Below are positions 4,884-17,850 of a stretch of 64,000 bases of DNA, piece after piece. Source of the stretch: Hyphomicrobium sp. D-2 (GTDB taxonomy: Bacteria > Pseudomonadota > Alphaproteobacteria > Rhizobiales > Hyphomicrobiaceae); the NCBI RefSeq assembly GCF_029872155.1, contig NZ_JARXLA010000003.1:310001-374000 (forward strand), written 5' to 3'. A program made the translations under genes and the position numbers. Below the pieces are notes generated by a model. That model had not been told where the DNA came from, searched no databases, and saw nothing but the letters and a program-made list of their open reading frames with translations. Every line of letters begins with the position of its first letter. Position 1 is the stretch's first letter.

Positions 4884-7880
4884 TTACTTTCCCGGTCTGC
4901 CGGTTTTGCGCGCACGGCCGCGTCGGCTTTTCTTTTCGGTATCCGTTGGCACGTCGATGGTACGCGTTGCTCGCTGCGGCGAAGTTCCGCTGCGAGGAGG
5001 CAGCATCGCGTGCGGACCCATCTCATCAAGGGTCGGTTTATGCGGCCCACGCACGCCTTCGCCAAATGCTCCCGCCTTTGTGCGCGGATCAACATTGGGC
5101 GCGCGTGCTGTGGGCATGCTTTCAGGGTCACGGCGCGGAATTGCACGATCAGTTCCGGGCCCCATGTCATCCAGCGAAGGCTTTTTGATCTTTGACGCGC
5201 TTGGCGACCGGCTCCCCGCAGGGGAGTCGCCGGGCGCAAAGGAAGAAGGCGCACCACCATATTTGCGCTCGCCCTTATAGGCTCCGGCGCGGTCTTCAAT
5301 GTCTGACTGGCGCGCCAGTGGATCGTCGGAAACGGCGAGTTCTGTTTCGCGCAGGCGCTTGACCTCGTCGCGCAGGCGCGCGGCGGTTTCAAAGTCAAGA
5401 TCGGCGGCGGCCGCATGCATGCGCCGCTCCATATCCTCGATGATCGCAGTGAGATTGTGCCCGACCGCGGGCGCATCGGCGAGGCCTGTATCGACTGTGA
5501 CGTGATCCTGCTCGTAAACGGAGCTAAGCACGTCGGCGATGTTCTTCTTTACACTTGCGGGCGTGATGCCATGTTCTGTGTTGTAAGCGACCTGCTTCTC
5601 GCGCCGGCGGTTGGTTTCAGCGATGGCGCGCTCCATCGATCCCGTCATTGTGTCGGCATAGAGAATGACACGGCCGTCGACGTTACGCGCGGCGCGGCCG
5701 ATGGTCTGGATCAATGATGTTTCAGAACGCAGGAAGCCTTCCTTGTCGGCATCGAGAATCGCGACGAGACCGCACTCGGGAATGTCGAGGCCTTCGCGCA
5801 GCAGGTTGATGCCGATGAGAACGTCGAACGCACCGAGGCGCAGGTCGCGGATAATCTCGATGCGCTCCAGCGTTTCGATGTCCGAGTGCATGTAGCGCAC
5901 GCGGATGCCAGCTTCGTGCATGTATTCGGTGAGGTCTTCAGCCATGCGCTTGGTCAGAGTGGTGACGAGTGTGCGATAGCCGCGGTTGGCGTTTTCGCGG
6001 GCTTCAAACAGCAGATCGTCAACCTGTGACTTTGCCGGCCGGATGATCACTTCAGGGTCGATAAGGCCCGTCGGCCGAATGACCTGCTCGACGAACGAGC
6101 CACCCGTTTCGTCCATCTCCCAGCCGCCCGGCGTTGCGGAAACGAACAGCGTTTGCGGGCGCATTGCGTCCCACTCTTCGAAGCGCAGCGGGCGATTGTC
6201 GAGGCACGACGGCAGGCGGAAGCCGTATTCGGCCAGCGTCGCCTTGCGCCGGTAGTCGCCCCGGAACATGGCGCCGATCTGCGGCACGGTAACGTGGCTT
6301 TCGTCGATGAACACGAGCGCGTTGTCGGGCAGGTATTCGAACAGCGTCGGCGGCGGATCACCCGGCTTGCGGCCGGTAAGATAGCGCGAATAGTTCTCGA
6401 TGCCCGCGCACGAGCCGGTCGCCTCCATCATCTCCATGTCGAACAGCGTGCGCTGCTCCAGCCGTTGCGCCTCCAGCAGCTTGCCGTTGTCGTAAAGCTC
6501 TTCGAGACGCAGCTTGAGCTCGCTCTTGATGAGCTTGATGGCCTGCTGCAGGGTCGGTTTGGGCGTCACGTAGTGCGAGTTGGAGTAGATCTTGACCAGA
6601 GACAGCTCGTCGGATTTCTGTCCGGTCAGCGGATCGAACTCGACGATGCTTTCGACATCATCGCCGAACAGCGAGATACGCCAGGCGCGGTCCTCCAAGT
6701 GGGCCGGAAACAATTCGATAGTGTCGCCGCGCACCCGGAAATTGCCGCGTACGAAATTGATGTCGTTGCGCCGATAGTGCAGGGCCACAAGGTCGGCAAT
6801 GAGCTGGTCGCGTGACAACCGCTCGCCCACCTGTACGGTGAAGGTCATCGCGGTATAGGTTTCAACCGATCCGATACCGTAGATGCAGGAAACGGACGCA
6901 ACGATGATCACATCGTCCCGTTCTAGCAGGGCGCGCGTTGCTGCGTGGCGCATGCGGTCGATCTGCTCGTTGATCGACGATTCCTTCTCGATATAGGTAT
7001 CGGTGCGCGGCACGTATGCTTCGGGCTGATAATAGTCGTAGTACGATACGAAGTATTCGACAGCGTTGTCGGGGAAGAAACTCTTGAACTCGCCATAGAG
7101 CTGCGCCGCCAGCGTCTTGTTGGGCGCGAGGACAAGCGCGGGACGTTGCGTGCGCTCAATCACCTGAGCCATGGTGAAGGTCTTGCCGGAACCCGTCACG
7201 CCCAGCAGCACCTGACTGCGATCATGCTTGCTGACGCCGTCAACAAGCTCGGCGATCGCGGTTGGCTGGTCGCCGCGCGGCTCGTACTCGGACACAATGT
7301 TGAAGTGCACGCCGCCCTCGGACTTGTCAGGTCGGGGTGGACGGTGCGGCGTGAAGGCAGCCTGTTCGCCGGAAACCAGCGGATGCGAAGCCATCATCGG
7401 CTGGCTGAGCAGAATTTCCTTCGCGTGGGCAGAACGCTGCTCCGGTTTGGCGAGCAACGCGTCGAGATACTTGCCCGGTGCTTCGCCCCCGAACGGCGGA
7501 CGCGGCCCCTGCTGCCGCAGTGCGGGCAGTGGAATGTGGCTCGCTTCGCTGTCGTAGGCCGGTCGATCGGGATCGGTCGTCGCGGCCGGAATGCCACCCA
7601 GCTCCTGAAGTGCCTCGAACACGGCCTGGGGCCGCTCGGCCAAACCCGGCGTAACTTCCGGCGCCGGCAACTCTTGAGCGCTGCCCTCCGAAGGCGAAGG
7701 TTTGCGGGGCGACTTACGGCGCGCGCGCACTTCAGGCGTGCCGGCAGCGGTTTCGGCTGGCGGGGGCGTCGGCTTGCCGGATCTGACGCGCGACGGGCGC
7801 GGCTTGGGGATGCGCTCGGCATCGACGCCAGCGGGTCCGGGCTTCTTTGCAGGCGAGGGATCTTTTGGGGGTGGCGTCAT
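4884..7880 (-). CDS. uvrB: UvrABC excinuclease subunit B with long tails
   Basis: UvrB is the damage-verifying helicase-like subunit of nucleotide excision repair. Visible hallmarks are [14 protein letters not shown] at the core start, Walker A GVTGSGKT, the beta-hairpin region [18 protein letters not shown], the DESH box, [21 protein letters not shown], and a UVR coiled-coil motif ([15 protein letters not shown] region). The core is preceded by about 180-190 residues rich in Pro, Ala, Lys and Arg, and followed by a basic tail of about 120 residues, giving about 998 residues against roughly 670 for typical UvrB. The tail contains an in-frame palindromic repeat (5203-5240). The ATG at 7880 was chosen over a TTG at 7916; neither has a strong ribosome site. 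Confidence 0.95.
5203..5240. repeat. Palindromic repeat copy inside uvrB
   Basis: This 38-base segment matches the intergenic repeat unit at 17800-17847 with only a few substitutions and one extra base. Shared are GGCG-CCGGCTCCCCG, AGGGG and GTCGCCGG, ending GCAAA. It can fold on itself around CTCCCC/GGGGAG. It is translated in frame on the minus strand as [10 protein letters not shown] in the low-complexity C-terminal tail of UvrB, after the UVR motif, where an insertion is likely to be tolerated. Confidence 0.75.
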
Positions 7881-8067
7881 GGGCGTGAATATGGCCCCGG
7901 GCGTCGCGCCGCTCAAGCCGCCATCTGCCGCCGTCCCTTCCTTAACCGTCAGGCATGGGGCGCGACCTTATAACGGGATAACGCCGCAGTCCGGCGGGGG
8001 CGGTTTGCCCCATCCGCGCCGTGATTTGGCGGGAACACTGCCTATGCAAGTTGGCGAGAGGTTTTCT

Positions 8068-8802
8068 ATGCGTGTGAAGATTTTAGCGGCAGTGACCAGC
8101 GTGCTGGCGATAGCGCCGCTGGCCTTTTCAGGTTCCGCCGTTGCAGGCCCGCGCGCGGTGCTGGAACTGTTCACCAGCCCATTCTGCTCCGCATGCCCGC
8201 CCGCCGATGCGTTGTTCACCGAGTTGGCCCGCAGCCCAGACCTCATCACGCTGGTGATGCCGGTGGATTCGATGGATCGGCCGGGCCGCACCGACCCGCT
8301 CGCCAAGCCCGCATTCACTGACCGTCAGGCGGCCTACGCCGAGCGGCGCAACTCCGACATGCTGTTCACGCCGCAGGCGGTGATCAATGGCGCCGCTGAG
8401 GCGCAAGGCTCCGACGCCGACGAAATTCGCGAGGGGATCGCCCAGACGCTGAACGTGCTGACGGTTCCCGTCGATGCCAAGGCAGCCGGCAAGCACATCA
8501 ATCTTTCCGTCGGTGGCGCGGGTAAAGCAGCTGCTAAAACCGGAGTCATCACCGTGCTGCCGTTCATGCGCGATCACACCGAGCCGCTGCGTGGCGGCCG
8601 CAGTGCGCATTACGCAAATCTCGTGCGCGATGTCATTCCCGTTGACACCTGGAACGGCGAGCCGTTCAAGGCGCGCCTGTTGCGACAGGACTTTGCCCAG
8701 TACGACGGCATTGTCGTGCTGCTGCAGGCTGGAACGAATGAGCGTCCTGGCGCGATCATCGGAGCAACACGCATCGCGTTTGCGAAGTCGGGCCGTTCCT
8801 GA
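8068..8802 (+). CDS. DUF1223 secreted thioredoxin-like protein
   Basis: This exported protein has about 244 residues. The signal peptide (MRVKILAAV... to SAVAG) is followed by the DUF1223 hallmark VLELFTSPFCSACPPAD, a thioredoxin-like beginning with a CxxC pair followed by PPAD. Later family-like segments are MLFTPQAVINGAAEAQG and GIVVLLQAG near the end. Members are predicted periplasmic with a thioredoxin-like fold; their substrates are unknown. The ATG at 8068 has GAGAGG 6 nt upstream and directly precedes the signal sequence. The gene is divergent from uvrB and may share the intergenic promoter region. Confidence 0.9.
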   Translation: MRVKILAAVTSVLAIAPLAFSGSAVAGPRAVLELFTSPFCSACPPADALFTELARSPDLITLVMPVDSMDRPGRTDPLAKPAFTDRQAAYAERRNSDMLFTPQAVINGAAEAQGSDADEIREGIAQTLNVLTVPVDAKAAGKHINLSVGGAGKAAAKTGVITVLPFMRDHTEPLRGGRSAHYANLVRDVIPVDTWNGEPFKARLLRQDFAQYDGIVVLLQAGTNERPGAIIGATRIAFAKSGRS

Positions 8803-8925
8803 CAGTGAGCGCCTGAGCGCCATCCAGCCAGCCTGCTCCGTCGCGGGTATCGCGTGTAATTTTCTCTGGGCGCGTGGTGTGGAAGCGAATACAACGCGCG
8901 CAAACAATCGCGACGGAGCGTGCGC

Positions 8926-9357
8926 ATGGGATCGCCTTCTCTTTCACTGTCTTTGCTCACGCTCGGGGTCGATGATCTGGCTCGGGCTCGTGCGTTTTAT
9001 GAGCAGATGGGGCTGGTGATATCGCCACAGAGCGGCGAGAACGTCATCTTCTTCCAGATGCCGGGTGGCGTGCTTGGTCTGTATCCGCGCACGCTGCTGG
9101 CGGAGGACGCAATGGTCCACGCGCAGGGCAGCGGTTTTTCCGGTGTCGCACTCGCGTGCAATCTCGACAGCCCCGAGGCGGTCGACGCGATGCTGGAGCG
9201 TGCTGTGCAGGCTGGCGGCAAATTGGTGAAACCGGGACAGGCCGTGTTCTGGGGCGGTTACTCAGGGTACTTCGCCGATCCGGACGGCCATCTATGGGAG
9301 GTGGCGCACAATCCGTTCTTCCCGAAAGACGAGCGCGGTGTGCTGGCCATCGGATAG
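8926..9357 (+). CDS. VOC (glyoxalase-fold) family protein
   Basis: This protein of about 143 residues has a single vicinal-oxygen-chelate module set. LLTLGVDDLARARAFYEQMGL is the classic first beta-alpha segment, followed by a paired segment with VFWGGYSGYFADPDGHLWEVAHNP, typical of lyase and dioxygenase relatives. Metal-binding residues are plausible (the terminal Glu of LWEV), but the substrate cannot be assigned. The ATG at 8926 has GGAG 7 nt upstream, preferable to the GTG at 8920. The following membrane-protein gene begins about 60 bases downstream on the same strand. Confidence 0.88.
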   Translation: MGSPSLSLSLLTLGVDDLARARAFYEQMGLVISPQSGENVIFFQMPGGVLGLYPRTLLAEDAMVHAQGSGFSGVALACNLDSPEAVDAMLERAVQAGGKLVKPGQAVFWGGYSGYFADPDGHLWEVAHNPFFPKDERGVLAIG

Positions 9358-9415
9358 CACGCACATCGGCCGACGTGCGTACCGCTTCGAACGCGTGGCC
9401 CCATTCACTTTGCCA

Positions 9416-10423
9416 ATGGATGTGAGGGTTGGGTTGACCTACAAGAGCAGCAAACCAGCAACTGGCACCGACACTGCGCAGGGCAAACGCGGCCCGATTG
9501 CGACGGTGATCGTGCATGTCCTGTTTGCGGCGCTGATGTATCTGGCCGTGGCAGTTGCGATCGGCGGGGTGAATTCCATTCGTCACGCGCCGACCGAAAA
9601 GTCGATTACCGCTGGTGTCGTGGCGTTGGTCGTCGGCAGCATCTTCGCTGTCGTAATCGGCGCTGTCTGGTATCTGCTGTTCGTCATCGAGCCGCGCAGG
9701 GAAGCTTACGCTGCGCGCATGGTGGCGCTGCACCCCGGTGCACCATGGATGCAGAATGAGATGTGGGCCAAGCGTATTGTTACGGACCGCGCCAACCTTG
9801 GGTTGACGATATTTCTGTGGGTCTGGTCAATTGGCTGGTGTGGCGGGCTGTGGCTGATCTGGAATGCAAACGGCCACCGGATACTGGCTTCAGCGCGCGA
9901 TAGCTGGGTCGAGACGCTCATCTTCCCACTGTTTCCGATTGCGGGGGTGCTGGGCATTCTCGCGGCCATTGGTGCCACGCGCATCTGGTTTCGCGATGGT
10001 CCGTCCACGCTGCGCATCGATACGCTGCCCGGATACATGGGTGAAACGTTTCGCGGTGTTGTGACGGTGCGCATGCCTGAGCCGGTGCCGCTGGAAATCG
10101 AAGCTGCATGCGAACGCTTGAGCTATCGCACGTCAATCGATGGCAAAGGACGCCGACGCAAGATCTGGAAAACGACAACGGTGTGGTCGCACACCGCCAG
10201 AATTGCAGCGGGCGACCTGATGCCGGTTCTCAAAGGTGTGGTCAGCATCCCGATCGAGGTGCCGTTGCCGCGGAGATATATGCCAAGCGGCCTCGGCGCT
10301 GACGGAGCAGGGGTGCAGTGGATGCTCTATGTGCGTGATGTTCGCCGGGCGGACGTTGACGGCAGTCGGCATTATGCGGCGCAGTTTTCCATCCCGGTAT
10401 TCGAGCGCCACCGCAGTCGCTGA
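9416..10423 (+). CDS. Membrane protein of unknown function
   Basis: The product is about 335 residues with four hydrophobic segments: around residues 25-50, 60-90 (ALVVGSIFAVVIGAVWYLLF), 125-150 (TIFLWVWSIGWCGGLWLIW) and 165-190. A soluble C-terminal half follows, made of beta-strand-like segments (FRGVVTVRMPEPVPLEIEA, QWMLYVRDV, AAQFSIPVFER). That half resembles arrestin-like beta modules of DUF3592-type membrane proteins, which is inference from pattern only. The start is uncertain: ATG 9416 has no clear ribosome site, and a TTG at 9434 lies after GAGG. It may be co-transcribed with the VOC gene. Confidence 0.75.
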   Translation: MDVRVGLTYKSSKPATGTDTAQGKRGPIATVIVHVLFAALMYLAVAVAIGGVNSIRHAPTEKSITAGVVALVVGSIFAVVIGAVWYLLFVIEPRREAYAARMVALHPGAPWMQNEMWAKRIVTDRANLGLTIFLWVWSIGWCGGLWLIWNANGHRILASARDSWVETLIFPLFPIAGVLGILAAIGATRIWFRDGPSTLRIDTLPGYMGETFRGVVTVRMPEPVPLEIEAACERLSYRTSIDGKGRRRKIWKTTTVWSHTARIAAGDLMPVLKGVVSIPIEVPLPRRYMPSGLGADGAGVQWMLYVRDVRRADVDGSRHYAAQFSIPVFERHRSR

Positions 10424-10497
10424 CGCCACGACACTGCATGAGCAACGGGCGCCGCGCTTGTCGGCAGCACCCGATGGCCCGGCTCCCGTTGTTGCGC

Positions 10498-12354
10498 TCA
10501 GGCTGTGGACACCGCCGCTTTTTCATCATCGGCTTGATCGCTGGCCACCGGTGCCTTGGCGCCCCATAGCAACGCAACGCCGATGACGGCTGAAGCAATC
10601 GACGCAACAAACACCGCGATCTTGGCCGCCGCAAAATCCGATGCCTGCGGGAAGGACTGTCCGGCGATGAACAGCGACATGGTGAAACCGATACCGGCCA
10701 TTGCGCCCGCGCCTGCAAGTTGGCGCCAAGAATAGGCGGCAGGCTTGATGGCGAGCTTGCATGCCACCGCCAGCAACGATGCAAGCAGAAGGCCAAACGG
10801 TTTGCCGACAACCAGGCCGACGATGATGGCGAGCATCAGCGGCTCGTGATTTTCGATCACACCGAGCGACAGCGGCACACCGGCATTTGCCAAGGCAAAC
10901 ACCGGCAGGATGATGTAGCTCGACTCTGCGCCGGCATGGCGCAGCAGGCGATCAGCGGGTGACTGGATGCGATCGTAAATGGCGTCGATTGCGCGTATAG
11001 CCGGCAGCGAGGGACCATGGTGCAGCACCTCGCTGCCGTGGCGCGCTTCTTCCGCGACGATGCTTGAGAACTGCGCAGTGAGTGCTTTGAGATTGGCGGG
11101 TGGCCGTGTCGGGATGAACAGCGCCAGCAGCACACCGGCCAGGGTGGCGTGCAGACCGCCAGCGTGCACAAACGCCCACAACACGATGCCTAGCAGCAGG
11201 TAAGGCGCGAGACGATAAACGCGCGAGTAGCTGAGCGCAGCCAGTGCAATGAGTACGCCAACGGCGCCAAGCAGATATATCCATTGAATGGCGCTGGAAT
11301 AGAATATCGCCACAACAATGATGGCGCCAATGTCGTCGACGATAGCGGCGGCGGTGAGAAAGATGCGCAGTTCCACCGGTACGCGCGATCCCATCATGAC
11401 GATCAGCGCAACGGCAAAGGCCGTGTCCGTTGCCATGGGGATACCCCAGCCGTGCGCCCATGGACCTGTCGGCAGCACCAGCATGTAGAGCAATGCGGGC
11501 ACGGCCATACCGCCAATCGCAGCAGCAATCGGCAGCGCGGCCGCCTTCACGTCGGCGAGTTGGCCGACGGTGAATTCGCGTTTTATTTCCAGCCCGACAA
11601 CGAGGAAGAAGACGGTCAGCAGGCCATCGTTGACCCAGTGCCGCAACGACATGTCGAAGCTCAACGGCCCGAGTGTGAAGCCCAGGTGCTGGTGCCAGAA
11701 TGCTTCGAAGCTCGTAGCCCAGACCGAATTGGTGAGCACGATGGCAAGCACGGTTGCGAGCAGCAGCAGAATACCGGCTGATGGGCCCCAGCTGGCAAAA
11801 TCGACTGCGGCGGAGCGCACCCGGTGGCCCAGCGTGCCGCGCATTGCATCGGAAAACGAGCTTTCATCCCAGGCGCCATCATAGCGGCGCCGGTTGATGA
11901 AGAACGTGGGTGTGATGAGTACGCCGCTGGCTGCCGCACTGCGCTCGTCGGCCTCAACACGGGCGCGAGCCGGGTGCAGCGTTTCTGGCGCCGAGAGGTC
12001 GACGCCAAGATCCTGCGCAACGGCGATGATGTCCTGCTCGGTCAACACCTCCGACCGGGTCATCAACGTAACGTGCGCCCGCCAGAAGCTGTCATCGTCG
12101 GGGGCCATTTCCACCAGTTCGGCGGCGCGACGGGCCAAATCGTTGTTGCGCAGCGGACGGTGGCGGAACACGTAGCGCAGGCGTTGGCCGAACTCATCAC
12201 GGGCTTCCGCGACACGCTCGTTGGCGGCGCGGCACGAAGCGCAGGCATAGCTGCCATATTCCACCAGCGTGATGGGGGCGTTGTCGGGTCCAAGTGTATG
12301 GTCGTCCGGGCCTACTGCCCGGTCCAGCCGGTTGCGTTGGACTGTCTGGCTCAC
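10498..12354 (-). CDS. nhaA: Thioredoxin-NhaA fusion Na+/H+ antiporter
   Basis: This is a two-domain protein of about 618 residues. The first ~190 residues are a DsbA/thioredoxin-like domain with the redox pair in SYACASC and a cis-Pro region GVLITPTFFINRRRYDG. The rest is a full NhaA antiporter: LRHWVNDGLLTVFFLVVGLEIKRE, the paired aspartates in TAAAIVDDIGA, GIPMATDTAFA and GIGFTMSLFIA, about 11-12 membrane helices. NhaA exchanges 2 H+ for 1 Na+ across the inner membrane. Such DsbA-NhaA fusions are known in several bacteria; the redox role is unclear. GTG at 12354 follows CAGGGGG; an upstream GTG at 12438 would add 28 non-conserved residues. Confidence 0.93.
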   Translation of the reverse strand: MSQTVQRNRLDRAVGPDDHTLGPDNAPITLVEYGSYACASCRAANERVAEARDEFGQRLRYVFRHRPLRNNDLARRAAELVEMAPDDDSFWRAHVTLMTRSEVLTEQDIIAVAQDLGVDLSAPETLHPARARVEADERSAAASGVLITPTFFINRRRYDGAWDESSFSDAMRGTLGHRVRSAAVDFASWGPSAGILLLLATVLAIVLTNSVWATSFEAFWHQHLGFTLGPLSFDMSLRHWVNDGLLTVFFLVVGLEIKREFTVGQLADVKAAALPIAAAIGGMAVPALLYMLVLPTGPWAHGWGIPMATDTAFAVALIVMMGSRVPVELRIFLTAAAIVDDIGAIIVVAIFYSSAIQWIYLLGAVGVLIALAALSYSRVYRLAPYLLLGIVLWAFVHAGGLHATLAGVLLALFIPTRPPANLKALTAQFSSIVAEEARHGSEVLHHGPSLPAIRAIDAIYDRIQSPADRLLRHAGAESSYIILPVFALANAGVPLSLGVIENHEPLMLAIIVGLVVGKPFGLLLASLLAVACKLAIKPAAYSWRQLAGAGAMAGIGFTMSLFIAGQSFPQASDFAAAKIAVFVASIASAVIGVALLWGAKAPVASDQADDEKAAVSTA

Positions 12355-12481
12355 GCGGCCCCCTGGGATGCTGCTAATCCGTAACCGTAACGGTCGTGGC
12401 GGAGCTGCTTTTTTATATGCGAGATCGGGAGGCGTCACGCGCTCTCATGGGGATGCGTCACACGGACGTTCACCACCATGA

Positions 12482-12961
12482 TTAACGGCTGGCACTGATG
12501 GCTCGGCGGACAGCAAGCTCAAGGGCTTCCAGAAAGCGCGAGCGGTCCTGGCGGGTGAAGGATGCGTTGTAACCCTTGCTTTCGCCGGTTTCGCGCAAAT
12601 GGGCGGAAAGCTCGCGCATTGCGAGCGCCATGCCGATGCTGGATTCCGTAAATGGTTTGCCGGTGGGTCCGATCGCCTGGGCGCCCTTTTTCAGGCAGCG
12701 GGCTGCGAGAGGGATGTCCGCAGTCACTGCGACATCGTTGGGGCCGATACGCTCCGCGATCCAGTCATCCGCAATGTCCGGGCCTTCCGGTACGATCACG
12801 CGCTTGGTCAGAGGACCTTCTGGTAGGCGCATCCAGGCGTTGGAAACGAAGTGCACCGGTAGTCCATGGCGTTCGGCAACGCGCACGGCCTCATCCTTCA
12901 CCGGGCACGCGTCAGCGTCGATGAAGATGGCGGGCGATGATGGGGGCGCGGCTGTTGTCAC
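12482..12961 (-). CDS. YaiI/YqxD (UPF0178) family protein
   Basis: This protein of 159 residues has the UPF0178 signature: IFIDADACPVKDEA at the start, VAVTADIPLAARCLKKGA in the middle (a PIN-like pattern of acidic residues), and GMALAMRELSAHLRE later. Family members have a PIN-like nuclease-type fold; the cellular role is not established. The GTG start at 12961 is inferred from family N-terminus placement, since no strong ribosome site is visible. The upstream gene on the same strand ends about 40 bases away, so the two may form an operon. Confidence 0.9.
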   Translation of the reverse strand: MTTAAPPSSPAIFIDADACPVKDEAVRVAERHGLPVHFVSNAWMRLPEGPLTKRVIVPEGPDIADDWIAERIGPNDVAVTADIPLAARCLKKGAQAIGPTGKPFTESSIGMALAMRELSAHLRETGESKGYNASFTRQDRSRFLEALELAVRRAISASR

Positions 12962-13002
12962 CCGATGTTTGTAGCGGCCCGCACACGCAATGCAAAGCGG
13001 CG

Positions 13003-13539
13003 TCACATCGGCTCGGCAAGCAAGGCCTCGATTGCGACGGCATCCGGCACGCGATCGTGCATACCGGCGCCGGGTGTTGCTGTGTCGGCGTCCATGACCG
13101 GGCCGGGGGTGACAATGGCAACGAGCCGATCCCACAGTGCATTCGGCATCGACGGCCGGTCGCGCGCTGCTGACAGCAAATAGCGGAACTTGGCGTGCAT
13201 GCGGGCCGCTTCCTCCAGCGGCGCAATCACCCGCACACCGTGCATTTTCAGCAGCGGCTCAAGCGCGCTGACGGTGAGCAGCTCGACGTGCGCAACGGTG
13301 CGGCACTCGTTGATGGCGGTCAACAGGAAGGCAACCCCGGCATCGGGGGCGTATTGCACCATCTCGGTGATGCAGGAATAGGCGCGAATGCGACCCTGGC
13401 CGCACGATTCATCCGGGTTATCGGTCGTGTCCAGGAGCAGGCGGGCCAGGCGTCGAAAATCCGTGGCGCCGTCCGGCGTGGTGCACAGCGGCGCGGCCTG
13501 TGAAAATTGGCACTCCAAGCAACTCCACGTGCGATCCAT
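13003..13539 (-). CDS. Hypothetical protein, possibly DUF6869-like
   Basis: This protein of 178 residues is mostly alpha-helical by pattern, with no signal peptide or membrane segment. It begins with a small Cys cluster (WSCLECQF...PLC). The middle, with HVELLTVSALEPLLKMHG followed by an acidic and basic helix and FRYLLSAAR, recalls DUF6869-type HEAT-like segments, but I am not certain of that family. The C-terminal part, rich in Pro and Ala, looks disordered. The ATG at 13539 is the first start in frame. It lies upstream of the UPF0178 gene on the same strand; I cannot propose a function. Confidence 0.6.
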   Translation of the reverse strand: MDRTWSCLECQFSQAAPLCTTPDGATDFRRLARLLLDTTDNPDESCGQGRIRAYSCITEMVQYAPDAGVAFLLTAINECRTVAHVELLTVSALEPLLKMHGVRVIAPLEEAARMHAKFRYLLSAARDRPSMPNALWDRLVAIVTPGPVMDADTATPGAGMHDRVPDAVAIEALLAEPM

Positions 13540-13754
13540 GGGATGCTTTCCGGCGATGTTTCCGGTCGGACAGAACCTCTGGGCAAAGCGACTGGCGGTG
13601 CGTGATGCGGCAAACTACAGCATGCATTGTGCGGAAGAAACCTTCGGTTGCAAGACCGAAGGGACCGCGGATCGAAACACAGGCGGGATAGCGCGCACGG
13701 CCGCACGTAGGCGCTGGAAGCGCCTGCGTGCGATGCAACTGCCGTGAGCGATCG

Positions 13755-14642
13755 TTAGTGGTTCGCGGTTTTACGTTGGCGCGCGCGTTTGCGCGGAGTG
13801 GGCGAGGCAGGCTCGACAGCGGCCACAGCCTCCAGCTTCGACTTCGGCACAATGTGCACGACCTTGTACCCACGCTTTTTCAGCTCTGCGAGCAGTGTCG
13901 GCATGGCCGCCGCTGTGCGCGCCTGAATGTCGTGGAACAGGATGATACCCTTGCCCTTGCGGTCGAGGCCGGTCAGCACGTTGCGGATCACCATCTCCGG
14001 CGAGCGAACCCGCCAGTCCCATGAATCGACGTCAATGCCGAACACGGCGATATTGCGCTTGGCCAGATAGTCCCGCACCCGCTTCGGATCGCTGAGATAG
14101 GGGAAGCGGAAGAACGGCGCGACGCCATCGGGCAGCACTTCGTCCGCAATATTGAAAGTGCTTTCGATCTGCTGCTCGGCGCTGCCCAGAGACGTGGCGC
14201 CGAGGTTGCGGTGGGAATAGGTGTGCGTGCCAACCGTATGCCCTTCCGCCTGCACCTGCTTGGCGATCTCGGGGAAGTTCTTCAGCATCCGGCCGACATA
14301 GAAGAATGTGGCCTTGGTGCATTCAGCCGCCAGCGCGTCCAGAATTTCGCGGGTGTGAACGGGATGGGGGCCGTCGTCGAAGGTCAGAACGACTTCCTTG
14401 TCCTGCAGCAGCGGTGTCGGGCGATACTGCTCGCCATATTCGCCACCGCCCGCAGTGTCGACCTCTGCAACACGGGTGACGCCAAGGCCGTCGCTGCAAT
14501 TGATTGACTGATCGGTGACAGCATTATCGGTCGCCGTGGCGATGACTTCTTCCGATGCGGCGGCAACCCGCGCTGCTTCGGTTTCTGCGCGGGCAACAAT
14601 CGCCGGCAGCATCAGCGCGGCAACCAGAAGCAGCTTCTTCAT
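13755..14642 (-). CDS. Exported polysaccharide deacetylase
   Basis: This protein of about 295 residues has a signal peptide (MKKLLLVAALMLPAIVARA) and a NodB-homology carbohydrate esterase 4 domain. Motif 1 is LTFDDGPHP (catalytic Asp and metal Asp), motif 2 HTYSHRNL (metal His pair), motif 3 FFRFPYL, motif 4 DVDSWDW and motif 5 IILFHDIQ, all intact. It should remove N-acetyl groups from a cell-envelope polysaccharide or peptidoglycan in the periplasm; the substrate is not defined by sequence. The C-terminal tail is basic (RKRARQRK). The ATG at 14642 has GGGGAG about 7 nt upstream. Confidence 0.93.
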   Translation of the reverse strand: MKKLLLVAALMLPAIVARAETEAARVAAASEEVIATATDNAVTDQSINCSDGLGVTRVAEVDTAGGGEYGEQYRPTPLLQDKEVVLTFDDGPHPVHTREILDALAAECTKATFFYVGRMLKNFPEIAKQVQAEGHTVGTHTYSHRNLGATSLGSAEQQIESTFNIADEVLPDGVAPFFRFPYLSDPKRVRDYLAKRNIAVFGIDVDSWDWRVRSPEMVIRNVLTGLDRKGKGIILFHDIQARTAAAMPTLLAELKKRGYKVVHIVPKSKLEAVAAVEPASPTPRKRARQRKTANH

Positions 14643-15342
14643 CTCGGTTCTCCCCAACCAGTTGCCCCACGCGAAACAGGCTTGGTCGCTCCGACCACGG
14701 CGGCGGAGCATTGCATCGATGCATTTAACCCAGCGTAAAGGATAGTGCGCTTCGGCCTGAATGGCATACCGTTTCCAGCTTCGATAGCCACCGGTAGCGC
14801 GATCGTGCTCGGCCTGTGCTGCATCGGTGACGCCCGCTTTCCGCTCCTCACCGCGAAAACTGACACCAGACCCAGCAAAGAGAAGCAAAGAGAGGCACCG
14901 GGGGCGTGGCAACCTCTCTTTGCGCCCGGCGGTGGCTGGCCGGGGGATGTCGCGCAGGGCGCCGCTGCAGGCTTCGGCGGATCCGCACACGACAATCTCT
15001 CTTCGGTGCGTATCAAGCCGAGGATGGTGTGGCTGTCTGCGCTCCAGCATTGACGCATTGAAACATGAAACCGGGGTTTGATCCGCGTCGAGAATATCGA
15101 GCGTTATTTCAGCAATATCGCGGGCATTGCATGGCTTTGCCGCCCGGTTGACTGACCGTATACACCGCGCGCGGCTGGCAACGACGGGCAGCACCACGGG
15201 CTTCGAACGCCCGCCGCGTGATAAGCGTGCCGCCGCTTTTCCCGGTCTTTGCTTCGGTTGCCATCGGCGATATCAGGTCTGCGCTTGTCTGCCGATCAGG
15301 CATGGGGCTAAGTCGGGCGTCCACCTTTGGAGCCTGCGCAGC
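14643..15342. other. 700-base intergenic region with hairpin and short repeats
   Basis: No convincing gene is visible between the deacetylase and the DUF486 gene. Contained elements are a perfect two-copy 10-base direct repeat (AGCAAAGAGA at 14874-14883 and 14884-14893) and an 11-bp perfect inverted repeat (14885-14895 with 14913-14923) around a 17-base loop. It should also hold the divergent promoters of the flanking genes. Short open frames here have no recognisable features. Confidence 0.5.
14885..14923. repeat. Inverted repeat, 11-bp arms
   Basis: GCAAAGAGAGG and its exact complement are separated by 17 GC-rich bases. There is no T-run on either side, so a simple rho-independent terminator is unlikely. 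The left arm partly overlaps the 10-base direct repeat. It could act as an RNA hairpin or a regulator site; nothing here decides. Confidence 0.5.
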
Positions 15343-15705
15343 ATGCCACTCCCATCCTTTTCCATGCCCTACATTCTGCCGATCGTACTTCTGGTTTTCT
15401 CCAACGTCTTCATGACGTTCGCCTGGTATGGCCACCTGCGGTTCAAGGAGCAGCCGATCCTGCTGGTCATTCTTGTGTCGTGGATGATCGCGTTCTTTGA
15501 ATACTGTCTGGTCATTCCGGCCAACCGCTACGGCAGCGATGTCTATTCCGCCGCCCAGCTCAAGACGATCCAGGAAGTGATTACGCTGATCGTCTTTGCA
15601 GTGTTCTCGGTGCTCTATCTCAAGCAGCCGATTGGCATGCATCAGCTCATTGGGTTCGGGTTTATAGCGCTGGGTGCATTCTTTATCTTCTCGGGGCGGC
15701 CCTGA
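15343..15705 (+). CDS. DUF486 small membrane protein
   Basis: This integral membrane protein of about 120 residues has four helices. The DUF486 family pattern is visible: ILPIVLLVFSNVFMTFAWYGHL, SWMIAFFEYCLVIPANRYG, then QLKTIQEVITLIVFAVFSVLY and LIGFGFIALGAFFIF. The family is distantly drug/metabolite-transporter-like with no defined substrate. ATG 15343 has GGAG 10 nt upstream; an internal ATG at 15364 would begin exactly at the first helix and is an alternative. The SDR gene follows about 50 bases downstream on the same strand. Confidence 0.9.
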   Translation: MPLPSFSMPYILPIVLLVFSNVFMTFAWYGHLRFKEQPILLVILVSWMIAFFEYCLVIPANRYGSDVYSAAQLKTIQEVITLIVFAVFSVLYLKQPIGMHQLIGFGFIALGAFFIFSGRP

Positions 15706-15756
15706 AGCAGTTAAGGTCGCACGGAAACAAAGACCGCTCCGCGGCGCGAGGGGGAA

Positions 15757-16473
15757 ATGGCTGAGACACGCATTGCAATGGTCACGGGTGCCAACCGTGG
15801 GATCGGGCTGGAGATCGTAAAGCAGCTATCGCGCGGCGGTATGCTGGCGGTGCTCTGTTCGCGCGACGTTGAAAAGGGGAAGCAGGCGGCGTCGAAGCTG
15901 GCATCGGAGGGGCTTGAGCCGCCGGTGGTTGCTCTGGACGTGACGGATGATGCCAGCGTCGCTAATGCGGTGGCCGAGGTCATGAACCTTTTCGGGCGCA
16001 TCGATGTGCTGGTGAACAATGCTGCGATCCAGCGGGAAGGGATGACGGCTGAGCAGGCGAGCGTTCTTGATGTTGCGCCGGAACTTGCGCTGGAAGTGTT
16101 CAACGCCAATACGCTGGGGCCGTTGCGACTGACCAAAGCCGTTGTGCCTATCATGCGCGAGGGCGGCTATGGCCGGATCGTCAATATTTCCTCCGGCGCG
16201 GGCCAACTCGCGGAAATGGCGGCCGGGTTTCCATCCTATCGGATGTCGAAGGCGGCGCTGAACGCGCTGACGAAAGTAACTGCTGCGGAGCTGGGGCCAT
16301 CGCCGATCAAGGTCAATGCCATGTGTCCCGGCTGGGTGCGCACCGACATGGGCGGACCGGACGCGACACGCTCGGTGGAGCAGGGCGCGGAAACGGCGAT
16401 CTGGCTTGCCACTCTGCCCGATACCGGCTCTACCGGCGGTTTCTTCCGTGATAAGACGCCGATCCCCTGGTAA
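15757..16473 (+). CDS. SDR family oxidoreductase
   Basis: This is a classical short-chain dehydrogenase/reductase of 238 residues with a Rossmann fold. The cofactor motif TGANRGIG is at about residue 10, NNAA at about 87, the catalytic Ser sits in IVNISSGAGQ, and the Tyr-x-x-x-Lys pair is in YRMSKAAL. CSRD after the second strand (Arg) favours NADPH. The C-terminal GGFFRDKTPIPW resembles carbonyl-reductase-type SDRs. The substrate is not predictable. The ATG at 15757 follows GAGGGGG, about 3 nt away. It may be co-transcribed with the preceding DUF486 gene. Confidence 0.93.
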   Translation: MAETRIAMVTGANRGIGLEIVKQLSRGGMLAVLCSRDVEKGKQAASKLASEGLEPPVVALDVTDDASVANAVAEVMNLFGRIDVLVNNAAIQREGMTAEQASVLDVAPELALEVFNANTLGPLRLTKAVVPIMREGGYGRIVNISSGAGQLAEMAAGFPSYRMSKAALNALTKVTAAELGPSPIKVNAMCPGWVRTDMGGPDATRSVEQGAETAIWLATLPDTGSTGGFFRDKTPIPW

Positions 16474-16539
16474 TATTGGCTAGGCGTAGTCCAGAAGTTT
16501 GGACTGATAGGTGCGCTGCCGTACAGGCAGTCGTTTTGC

Positions 16540-16719
16540 TTACACGCCGCGCACCAGATTGCCGATCATCAGCGTGATGTAGGCGCTGATCGCAAGCCAG
16601 AATTCCTGATGCGGCAAGTATCGCGGCACGCCGATAAAGCCCAGCTTGGTCACCAGCGCGAGAAGAGCGAGGGTGAGCGCGATCAGGAAGATGGTGATGG
16701 TTGGCGGATTGAGGCGCAT
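16540..16719 (-). CDS. Small two-helix membrane protein (59 aa)
   Basis: This 59-residue frame begins MRLNPPTITIFLIALTLAL and ends IGNLVRGV. It has two hydrophobic helices, the first at about residues 8-24 and the second at about 41-55, joined by a short GVPRYLPHQEFW loop. The ATG at 16719 has GGGGAGGA about 9 nt upstream. I recognise no named family, but the membrane pattern, ribosome site and coding-like codon choice support a real gene. It is convergent with the SDR gene. Confidence 0.7.
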   Translation of the reverse strand: MRLNPPTITIFLIALTLALLALVTKLGFIGVPRYLPHQEFWLAISAYITLMIGNLVRGV

Positions 16720-17097
16720 GGGTCTGGTATCCTCCCCTTAGGTCGCGATGCGGCACGGCGCATGAAGCCAACGCCTATACGCTCCGGTCATGGCACGGAT
16801 TTGATCGGCCGGAACCCTAAAACCGTCAATTGGCGGGGTGCGTATAGCTGACCGCAGCGTGGCACTCCGCGCCGTGCCGCATGATGGCATTTTTTTCAGA
16901 ACCTGAAACAACGTGATACGAGACAGTGGTCTTGTTAATCGTCCCCACCGACGGATTGGGCGCGATCGTAGCGCGATGTTTCAGGCGCCCGACATTCTGT
17001 CGCTGCTTGCTCGTATGACCCTGCAAGGGTCCGTGAAGACGGCGAGGCCGGGCAATCGATGATCGCCCGGCCTCCGCATTCCGAAATTGTGCAGGCT
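16720..17097. other. Intergenic region without recognised gene
   Basis: About 380 bases between the small membrane protein and the DUF6481 gene, both on the minus strand. It presumably includes the promoter of the former and the 3' end of the latter. I see no tRNA, no convincing small gene and no clear terminator. Confidence 0.4.
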
Positions 17098-17454
17098 TTA
17101 GCCCGCCTTGCGAGCCTTGCGGGCGGCGTAGCGCGCGTCGCGATCCTTCTTGCGCTGCGTCTCAAGCTCAACCTGCTCGTCGATTTCCCGCGCCAGGCGC
17201 GCTTCGTTCTCTAGGCGCGCGGCCAGTTCATCGGCCGCAACTTGTGCTGCTTGCCGCTCCTGTTCGACGCGGCGTGCCTCTGCCCGCTCGGCGGCTAGCT
17301 TCTGCCGTTCGGCCGCCGCCAGGGCACGCGCCGCCCTTTGTTCAGCGACTGCCGGGTCTTCTGCTCGTGCGCGGAATCGCGCCAACGCGGCGCTTTTGGC
17401 GGCTACGGATGTGGCCTGCCGGTCGTTGAAATTCGGGTTCTTGAAGGCTTTCAT
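17098..17454 (-). CDS. DUF6481 family protein
   Basis: This highly charged 118-residue protein is almost all helix, predicted as a long single coiled coil: repeated Ala, Arg, Glu, Gln and Lys (AARALAAAERQKLAAERAEARR and similar). It opens with MKAFKNPNFNDRQ, the DUF6481 hallmark. There is no signal or membrane segment. The family is common in Hyphomicrobiales and its function is unknown. The ATG at 17454 was chosen because it opens the conserved N-terminus and has GGAG just upstream; an earlier in-frame ATG at 17505 adds residues unlike the family. Confidence 0.85.
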   Translation of the reverse strand: MKAFKNPNFNDRQATSVAAKSAALARFRARAEDPAVAEQRAARALAAAERQKLAAERAEARRVEQERQAAQVAADELAARLENEARLAREIDEQVELETQRKKDRDARYAARKARKAG

Positions 17455-17701
17455 CTTGCTCCAGTCAATTGGTTCAGTTTGCTGACCCGAACACGGTGCT
17501 TCCATCTCGGGGAAACAGCTGGCGGCTCCTTAGCACGGAATTCGCCACCTCGCGAAATGCTCCTGATGCGTCATCCTTGGCTTATCCATCTCGAGACTCG
17601 GGCGCCCGGTGCGGTGCGGCCTGCGATACGGATCTCGGCATTAAGGTCGACGACGCGATTGAGATCATACCGGTACGACCGGACGCCGTCGGCGGCGCAA
17701 G

Positions 17702-17847
17702 GGATAATCACCGGCGGCTGGTTGTTCCCCGCAGGGGCGCCGGTGCGAAAGGACACAACACCGGCGGCTGGTTCCCCGGAGGGGTGTCGCCGGTGCAAAG
17801 GATAATCACCGGCGGCCGGCTCCCCGGAGGGGTGTCGCCGGTGCAAA
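17702..17847. repeat. Three tandem copies of a 48-49 bp palindromic repeat
   Basis: Units lie at 17702-17750, 17751-17799 and 17800-17847. Each has ACCGGCGGC at its left, CCCCGSAGGGG at its centre and CGCCGGTGC followed by AAA at its right, so each unit can fold into a GC-rich hairpin with a second small hairpin at its tip. Units 2 and 3 are nearly identical and unit 1 is more diverged. A fourth copy sits inside uvrB (5203-5240). The array lies between DUF6481 and the sortase-like gene. Confidence 0.85.
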
Positions 17848-17850
17848 AAA

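Follow-up and report, generated by a model that had tools for sequence, protein, structure and literature searches.

How does the same short palindrome come to lie both between genes and inside a conserved DNA repair gene? The question is raised by a window of 64,000 nucleotides (nt) from Hyphomicrobium sp. D-2 (contig NZ_JARXLA010000003.1; the window is the whole stretch of DNA that was analysed), in which a GC-rich hairpin that we call R1 stands three times in tandem in one intergenic gap and once within uvrB. A reading of these letters without database searches (the sequence-only reading) had pointed out the likeness and had compared the repeat with the Rickettsia palindromic elements (RPEs). 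We think it probable that R1 is a non-autonomous hairpin resembling the repetitive extragenic palindromic (REP) sequences, which was dispersed through the genome, came to lie in frame in protein linkers, and later changed in place. Below, G000 is the genome that holds the window, G001 is a sister genome from the same genus, other G labels are relatives, and L labels are DNA stretches that we fetched.

A hairpin dispersed through the genome

R1 is a family of 47-nt hairpins, and the uvrB block (5194-5240) and all three intergenic units (17704-17848), which are spaced 48-50 nt apart, are members. The letters quoted in the sequence-only reading were found where it had placed them, and its view that the block and the units are one family held up. 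Its boundaries needed adjustment: the uvrB repeat, given as 5203-5240, extends to a full unit of 47 nt, and the tandem array does have three units but begins at 17704, as the stretch 17751-17847 holds the last two (Table 1). A search of the window with a core pattern (16 fixed bases, interrupted by two short gaps) picks out three places, which are units 2 and 3 and the copy in uvrB; 100 dinucleotide shuffles of the window give no match. An Rfam scan of the window at gathering thresholds returned one tRNA only.

Table 1. Coordinates of uvrB and of the R1 copies in the window
Feature	Position	Strand	Evidence
uvrB, excinuclease ABC subunit B, with long N-terminal extension and C-terminal tail	4884..7916	-	NCBIfam NF003673, TIGR00631; Pfam UvrB_inter, UvrB, UVR
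R1 in uvrB	5194..5240	+ (uvrB on minus strand)	58.1 bits, model seed copy; translation; fold
R1 unit 1, intergenic array, most diverged	17704..17750	+	36.8 bits, non-seed
R1 unit 2, intergenic array	17754..17800	+	60.6 bits, seed copy
R1 unit 3, intergenic array	17802..17848	+	69.1 bits, seed copy

R1 folds into an outer stem of 9 bp, a one-sided bulge of 4 nt, and an inner stem of 7 bp that includes a G-T pair (i.e., 16 pairs with a bulge), closed by a GNA loop of 3 nt. We built a covariance model from 11 copies, among them units 2 and 3 and the copy in uvrB, so that the scores of those three are not independent; the seed does not include unit 1 or most of the 137 copies described below. In the alignment of the 137 copies, 94.6% of cells are paired, two-sided changes occur at 13 of the 16 pairs, two-sided cells number 362 as against 98.7 in shuffles, and the covariation score is 0.447 (shuffles, 0.139; slid controls, 0.085 or less), with the reservation that this alignment was fitted to the structure model and so leans towards structure. 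When the 11 seed copies are aligned without structure, the score is 0.174 (0.101 shuffled and at most 0.099 slid), and 6 of the 16 pairs have changed on both sides. A base logo from 101 of the 137 copies, the sample that we also used for flanks and reading frames, shows near-invariant bases around GGCGGCCGGC and GTCGCC. In this sample there is no conserved motif upstream of R1, and the downstream side (in forward orientation) is A-rich, not U-rich. GANTC is the CcrM methylation site, and it is present in 82 of the 137 R1 copies of G000, versus 1.1 per kb in the window.

If the repeat is mobile, the sequence-only reading argued, many more copies should exist, and they do. A search of the whole G000 genome gave at least 142 matches at E ≤ 1 (scoring covered 150 of the 4372 candidates from a first look, hence a lower bound). 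At E ≤ 0.01, there are 137 copies in the window together with 54 fetched stretches. By the gene calls made in this analysis, 122 of the 137 lie wholly outside predicted genes, 7 overlap a gene, and 8 lie inside one, including 2 in weak open reading frames that are probably not genes (L170 and L208, with scores of 10 and 8). For 77 clusters, the gap has a called gene at either end. Classed by their first copy, 44 of these are between convergent genes, 31 between unidirectional genes, and just 2 between divergent genes; of the 8259 placeable positions in the window, 1522 are in convergent gaps and 2267 in divergent ones. R1 is within 50 nt of 65 of 182 flanking 3' ends, versus 6 of 56 flanking 5' ends. 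Neighbouring copies less than 150 nt apart are mostly head-to-tail (37 of 42, the other 5 being inverted), and the usual spacing within arrays is 47-51 nt. We also saw that R1 copies start at the stop codons of glyS and folC (L208 2501 and L211 2501).

R1 is unevenly spread among relatives. It has matches in 18 of 60 genomes, all from one family (18 of 36 genomes there, including G000, and 0 of 24 from other families). Under stricter filters, there are over 100 copies in each of G000 and G001, three in each of G002 and G003, one in G005, and none in the genus members G004, G006 and G007; other genera of the family have up to 86 matches per genome. R1 is REP-like: it lies mostly 3' of genes, it forms head-to-tail arrays, and it is patchy among relatives. 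Its copy number, its intergenic position, and its preference for convergent or unidirectional gaps are those of a REP in the broad sense.

Copies and other hairpins in uvrB and thiC

As the sequence-only reading had it, the uvrB copy is in frame and lies after the UVR motif: it is read on the minus strand, beyond the Pfam UVR match at residues 825-857 of an open reading frame of 1010 amino acids (aa). (This frame begins with TTG; our gene model starts at 7880.) Another copy lies in the interdomain linker of thiC (L187), between the Pfam domains ThiC-associated (to residue 91) and ThiC_Rad_SAM (from residue 139). The proposal that the repeat enters genes and is read as extra peptide thus fits two proteins, and in G000 both copies are read in one common reverse frame. 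Of 101 copies, 100 have no stop in that frame, and 99 and 97 have none in two forward frames; the peptide pattern of the common frame is xxxGDSPxxSRPP. A third coding copy, in another genus, sits in the N-terminal extension of the UvrB of G062 with the peptide YAPGDSPSSSRPPGA, which has the same pattern; its frame was judged by this peptide, and those of the uvrB and thiC copies by frame count. Just 2 of the 137 copies are both internal to a gene and in frame. At the C-terminal ends of genes, the copy in L215 has the same peptide pattern, and those in L166, L204 and L210 are in other frames; stops may have been lost at these three.

We read 30 thiC loci (from 53 genomes with a match) and 30 uvrB loci (from 54). 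The thiC linker is short in 25 of the 28 orthologues that were readable among the 30 loci, and in 24 it is exactly 38 aa in the compared stretch. In G000 and G001, both with R1 in the frame that the uvrB copy of G000 uses, it is 46 and 45 aa. Judging from these alignments, thiC is a clean proof of insertion, with the site filled in G000 and G001 and empty in the relatives. We considered that the outer arms of R1 might be copied from the target at insertion, as some empty thiC orthologues contain an GGCGTCGG arm, but we dropped the idea because the arm positions are biased genome-wide.

For uvrB, the sequence-only reading had suggested that a copy absent from close relatives with flanks intact would support insertion. 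The element is indeed absent from uvrB of G002, G006 and G007, the genus members read besides G000 and G001, but the flanks are not intact: the three relatives have a linker segment, S(R/K)IxT(E/D)YEPVQPT, that is gone in G000 and G001. Because of this loss, uvrB is not a clean pair of empty and filled sites, and it is thiC that provides one. As the segment stands where G000 and G001 carry R1, the element has replaced or displaced it.

The same linkers also hold other hairpins. A second repeat, CCTCYCCC..GGGRGAGG, is present in 7 of 30 uvrB tails from five genera (G011, G013, G026, G027, G062, G066 and G078). Judged by eye from the peptides, it is in the linker that R1 occupies in six of these and farther along in G011. 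The strict pattern is not in the 2.4 kb preceding the tail of those seven genes, nor is the repeat in the uvrB tails of the genus mates G077, G067, G016, G074 and G085. It is a dispersed repeat, with 13-69 places in each carrier genome, and the reversed pattern, used as a control, has none in all 12 genomes searched. On the side, we note that the R1-rich G000 and G001 have no copy of the second repeat and that all ten other genomes searched have 6-69. It also occurs in the N-terminal extension of UvrB in G077 and G017 (L065 and L066), which makes this a second tolerated place; the uvrB tail of G017 is interrupted by a contig end. And in G027 (L062), the uvrB tail appears to be frame-shifted by its hairpin inserts, which would leave the C-terminus usual in the family unread.

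Further hairpins include one in the uvrB tail of G072, recognised by its fold, and a third repeat in that of L086 (Rhizobiales R129_K), whose pattern is at 36 places there (control, 0). A hairpin at 8194-8274 in the uvrB tail of L090 (Rhizobium sp. L1K21) was unconfirmed as a dispersed repeat: its pattern occurs once in the genome. In the thiC of G080 (L266), a hairpin other than R1, TPTPGPSPQGGG / CTCCCCGCAAGGGGGAG, is in frame at the same linker position as R1 in G000, and it is a look-alike of the second repeat. When the R1 model was run on uvrB of the relatives, it matched G000, G001 and the N-terminal copy of G062 only, and tails with the second repeat went unmatched. Since R1 and the second and third repeats share a CTCCCC..GGGGAG core, and since some forms of the second repeat resemble the third, we call these repeats different but not proven unrelated; they may be of common descent. 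It is also possible, although we consider it rather unlikely, that different hairpins are captured recurrently at both ends of UvrB and in the interdomain linker of ThiC, in a way that goes beyond tolerance (for example, by preferential insertion).

Change in place and means of movement

How has R1 changed since G000 and G001 diverged? Out of 90 clusters, 48 could be mapped to G001 at 46 distinct sites, and 42 were unmapped, including the triple array of the window. At the 46 sites, the number and orientation of copies agree in 23, the number differs in 21, and orientation alone differs in 2, one of which is uvrB. One mapped cluster has no R1 match in G001, where a decayed hairpin is left. A loose pair test, limited to 47-nt copies in clusters of equal number and orientation (21 copies), found that 19 of 336 pairs had changed on both sides, with all 19 still paired, versus 3.6 expected; another 32 had changed on one side. 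In the R1 of thiC, three pairs differ on both sides and none on one side: its inner part is identical in the two genomes, and its outer arms have changed in concert. Site 1 of G001 has a run of 36 nt that exactly inverts the letters of G000, including 9 nt beyond the paired positions of the model, and this would fit, tentatively, a polymerase template switch.

We propose that R1 is a REP-like element, not autonomous, that belongs to one bacterial family (in the Hyphomicrobiales, by inference) and that would have been amplified in the lineage of G000 and G001. It was presumably moved in trans by an enzyme that has been lost or is unrecognised; dispersal in trans is suggested by the copy number and by the filled thiC site. 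Most copies lie just 3' of genes, chiefly between convergent genes, and coding copies would be kept if they are in frame and within a linker or tail, as in the uvrB tail and thiC linker of G000 and the uvrB N-terminus of G062. We suspect that these are tolerated rather than beneficial. After insertion, arrays have grown or shrunk, copies have been inverted or replaced, and arms can change together, perhaps by template switching between them. This last step is tentative, being proposed on account of thiC, the inverted copy in uvrB, and site 1.

Several results weigh against this account. First, we saw no new insertion between G000 and G001. We picked 28 of the 40 G001 stretches for having an R1 copy, and the other stretches give 17 unselected sites, all of which are filled in both genomes, so present activity of R1 is not demonstrated. 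Second, the 19 two-sided pairs are confined to 5 of the 21 copies, and at least site 70 pairs copies that are not orthologous. In an equal-span recount of 7 copies, only thiC has two-sided pairs (3 of 112, versus 0.5 expected), and 9 pairs changed on one side. As concerted arm change by this strict count comes down to thiC, we hold the part about template switching tentatively. Third, the long mark of a template switch is at just one of the 46 sites, and the inverse matches at sites 16 and 78 are 13-15 nt long and may be due to chance (there was no shuffle control). Fourth, the uvrB copy of G001, which is at the same place as in G000 and scores 38.6 bits as a non-seed copy, is inverted and is read in another frame. 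Finally, we found no mover. PF01797, the family of REP-associated tyrosine transposases (RAYTs), has no match in G000 or G001, with the limit that a RAYT could escape this one model. It has matches in 10 of 60 genomes, and around 10 of the 12 matches listed in relatives there is no R1 at E ≤ 0.01 (the best E is 0.031). We rejected a RAYT as the mover on these grounds. Nor is there a transposase between R1 copies in the stretches that we read. Only three genes there are flanked by R1 at up to 250 nt on each side; they encode an aldolase of class II, a glutaredoxin (Grx4) and a DUF2794 protein, and with these we rejected a composite transposon as well.

Could R1 instead be selected as an RNA element at the 3' ends of mRNAs, for stability or termination, with the paired changes being compensatory mutations? 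We think this rather unlikely. The convergent and 3'-end placement, including the bias towards flanking 3' ends within 50 nt, the avoidance of divergent gaps, the strong covariation, and the stable fold all fit an RNA element, and the strict recount leaves little but thiC to speak against compensatory mutation. However, the concerted arm change in thiC is inside a coding region, where a role in mRNA is less likely. Also, the side downstream of R1 is A-rich rather than U-rich, the size of the arrays is unstable, and of 8 genus members, 3 lack any match and another 3 carry one to three.

Known repeats and what the linkers offer

Intragenic REPs, also in uvrB, are already known. Di Nocera, De Gregorio and Rocco (2013, PMC3733652) describe GTAG and CGTC REPs as short hairpins that are dispersed, lie for the most part in convergent or unidirectional gaps, and are uneven among relatives. 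They report intragenic copies, also in repair genes (uvrB of R. conorii), and a recB gene that was hit at roughly one position in two Xanthomonas. R1 resembles these REPs, as there described, in its dispersal, its placement, its uneven presence in relatives, and some intragenic copies (including uvrB), and it differs in that neither tag was seen, in its long bulged stem, in its head-to-tail arrays, and in its 3-nt GNA loop. Unlike GTAG REPs with their RAYTs, R1 has no GTAG-type end tag in the 101 copies and no PF01797 gene flanked by R1.

R1 is also like the RPEs in being a palindrome that adds an in-frame peptide to conserved proteins (here, those of uvrB and thiC). By the descriptions in PMC3733652, RPE-4 and RPE-6 are classed as CGTC repeats, which have stems of 8-9 bp, loops of 4-5 nt and mostly a CCA tail, and CGTC-type REPs have no associated transposase. 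Membership of R1 in this class would account for short alphaproteobacterial palindromes with in-frame intragenic copies and no association with a transposase. We nevertheless find it very improbable, and the kinship with RPEs that the sequence-only reading had raised finds no support in these descriptions, with which, rather than with RPE sequences, R1 was compared. R1 has no CGTC tag; its stem has 16 bp and a bulge, its loop 3 nt, and its downstream side is A-rich where a CCA tail would be; and its arrays are head-to-tail, whereas CGTC repeats mostly form head-to-head dimers. Size, as given in the text of PMC2229807 (105-146 bp for RPEs), also sets the two apart. That the uvrB segment is merely an ordinary low-complexity tail that resembles the intergenic units by chance is barely credible, for although this tail does vary among relatives, chance is refuted by the shuffles of the window and by the inverted non-seed copy at the same place in G001.

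Two other known systems are relevant. The Caulobacter repeat CIR (Chen and Shapiro 2003, as summarised in PMC2229807) is, like R1, an alphaproteobacterial repeat with GANTC. By that summary it has about 110 bp, two arms, GANTC at a loop, and stops in all frames, and no intragenic copies were found; R1 is shorter, has open frames, and is found within genes. Template switching at hairpins is described, in PMC8794818 and PMC8604942, as homogenising arms and inverting spacers, also in coding DNA, in RNA genes and yeast genes. The putative marks in R1 are of this kind, here at one site and in thiC. A literature search by sequence words turned up no paper on the R1 repeat, going by titles among the matches listed. 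In the papers cited here we did not see the R1 family, the thiC insertion, or the repeated filling of uvrB and thiC linkers by different repeats.

Two housekeeping proteins whose linkers have repeatedly received different hairpins, and for which orthologues with empty sites are available, amount to a natural experiment. With these linkers, tolerance, benefit and site preference can be separated. They also allow us to ask whether the covariation in dispersed bacterial hairpins reflects RNA function or a process of DNA mutation. If template switching does keep the arms complementary, then strong covariation alone would be no evidence of RNA function.

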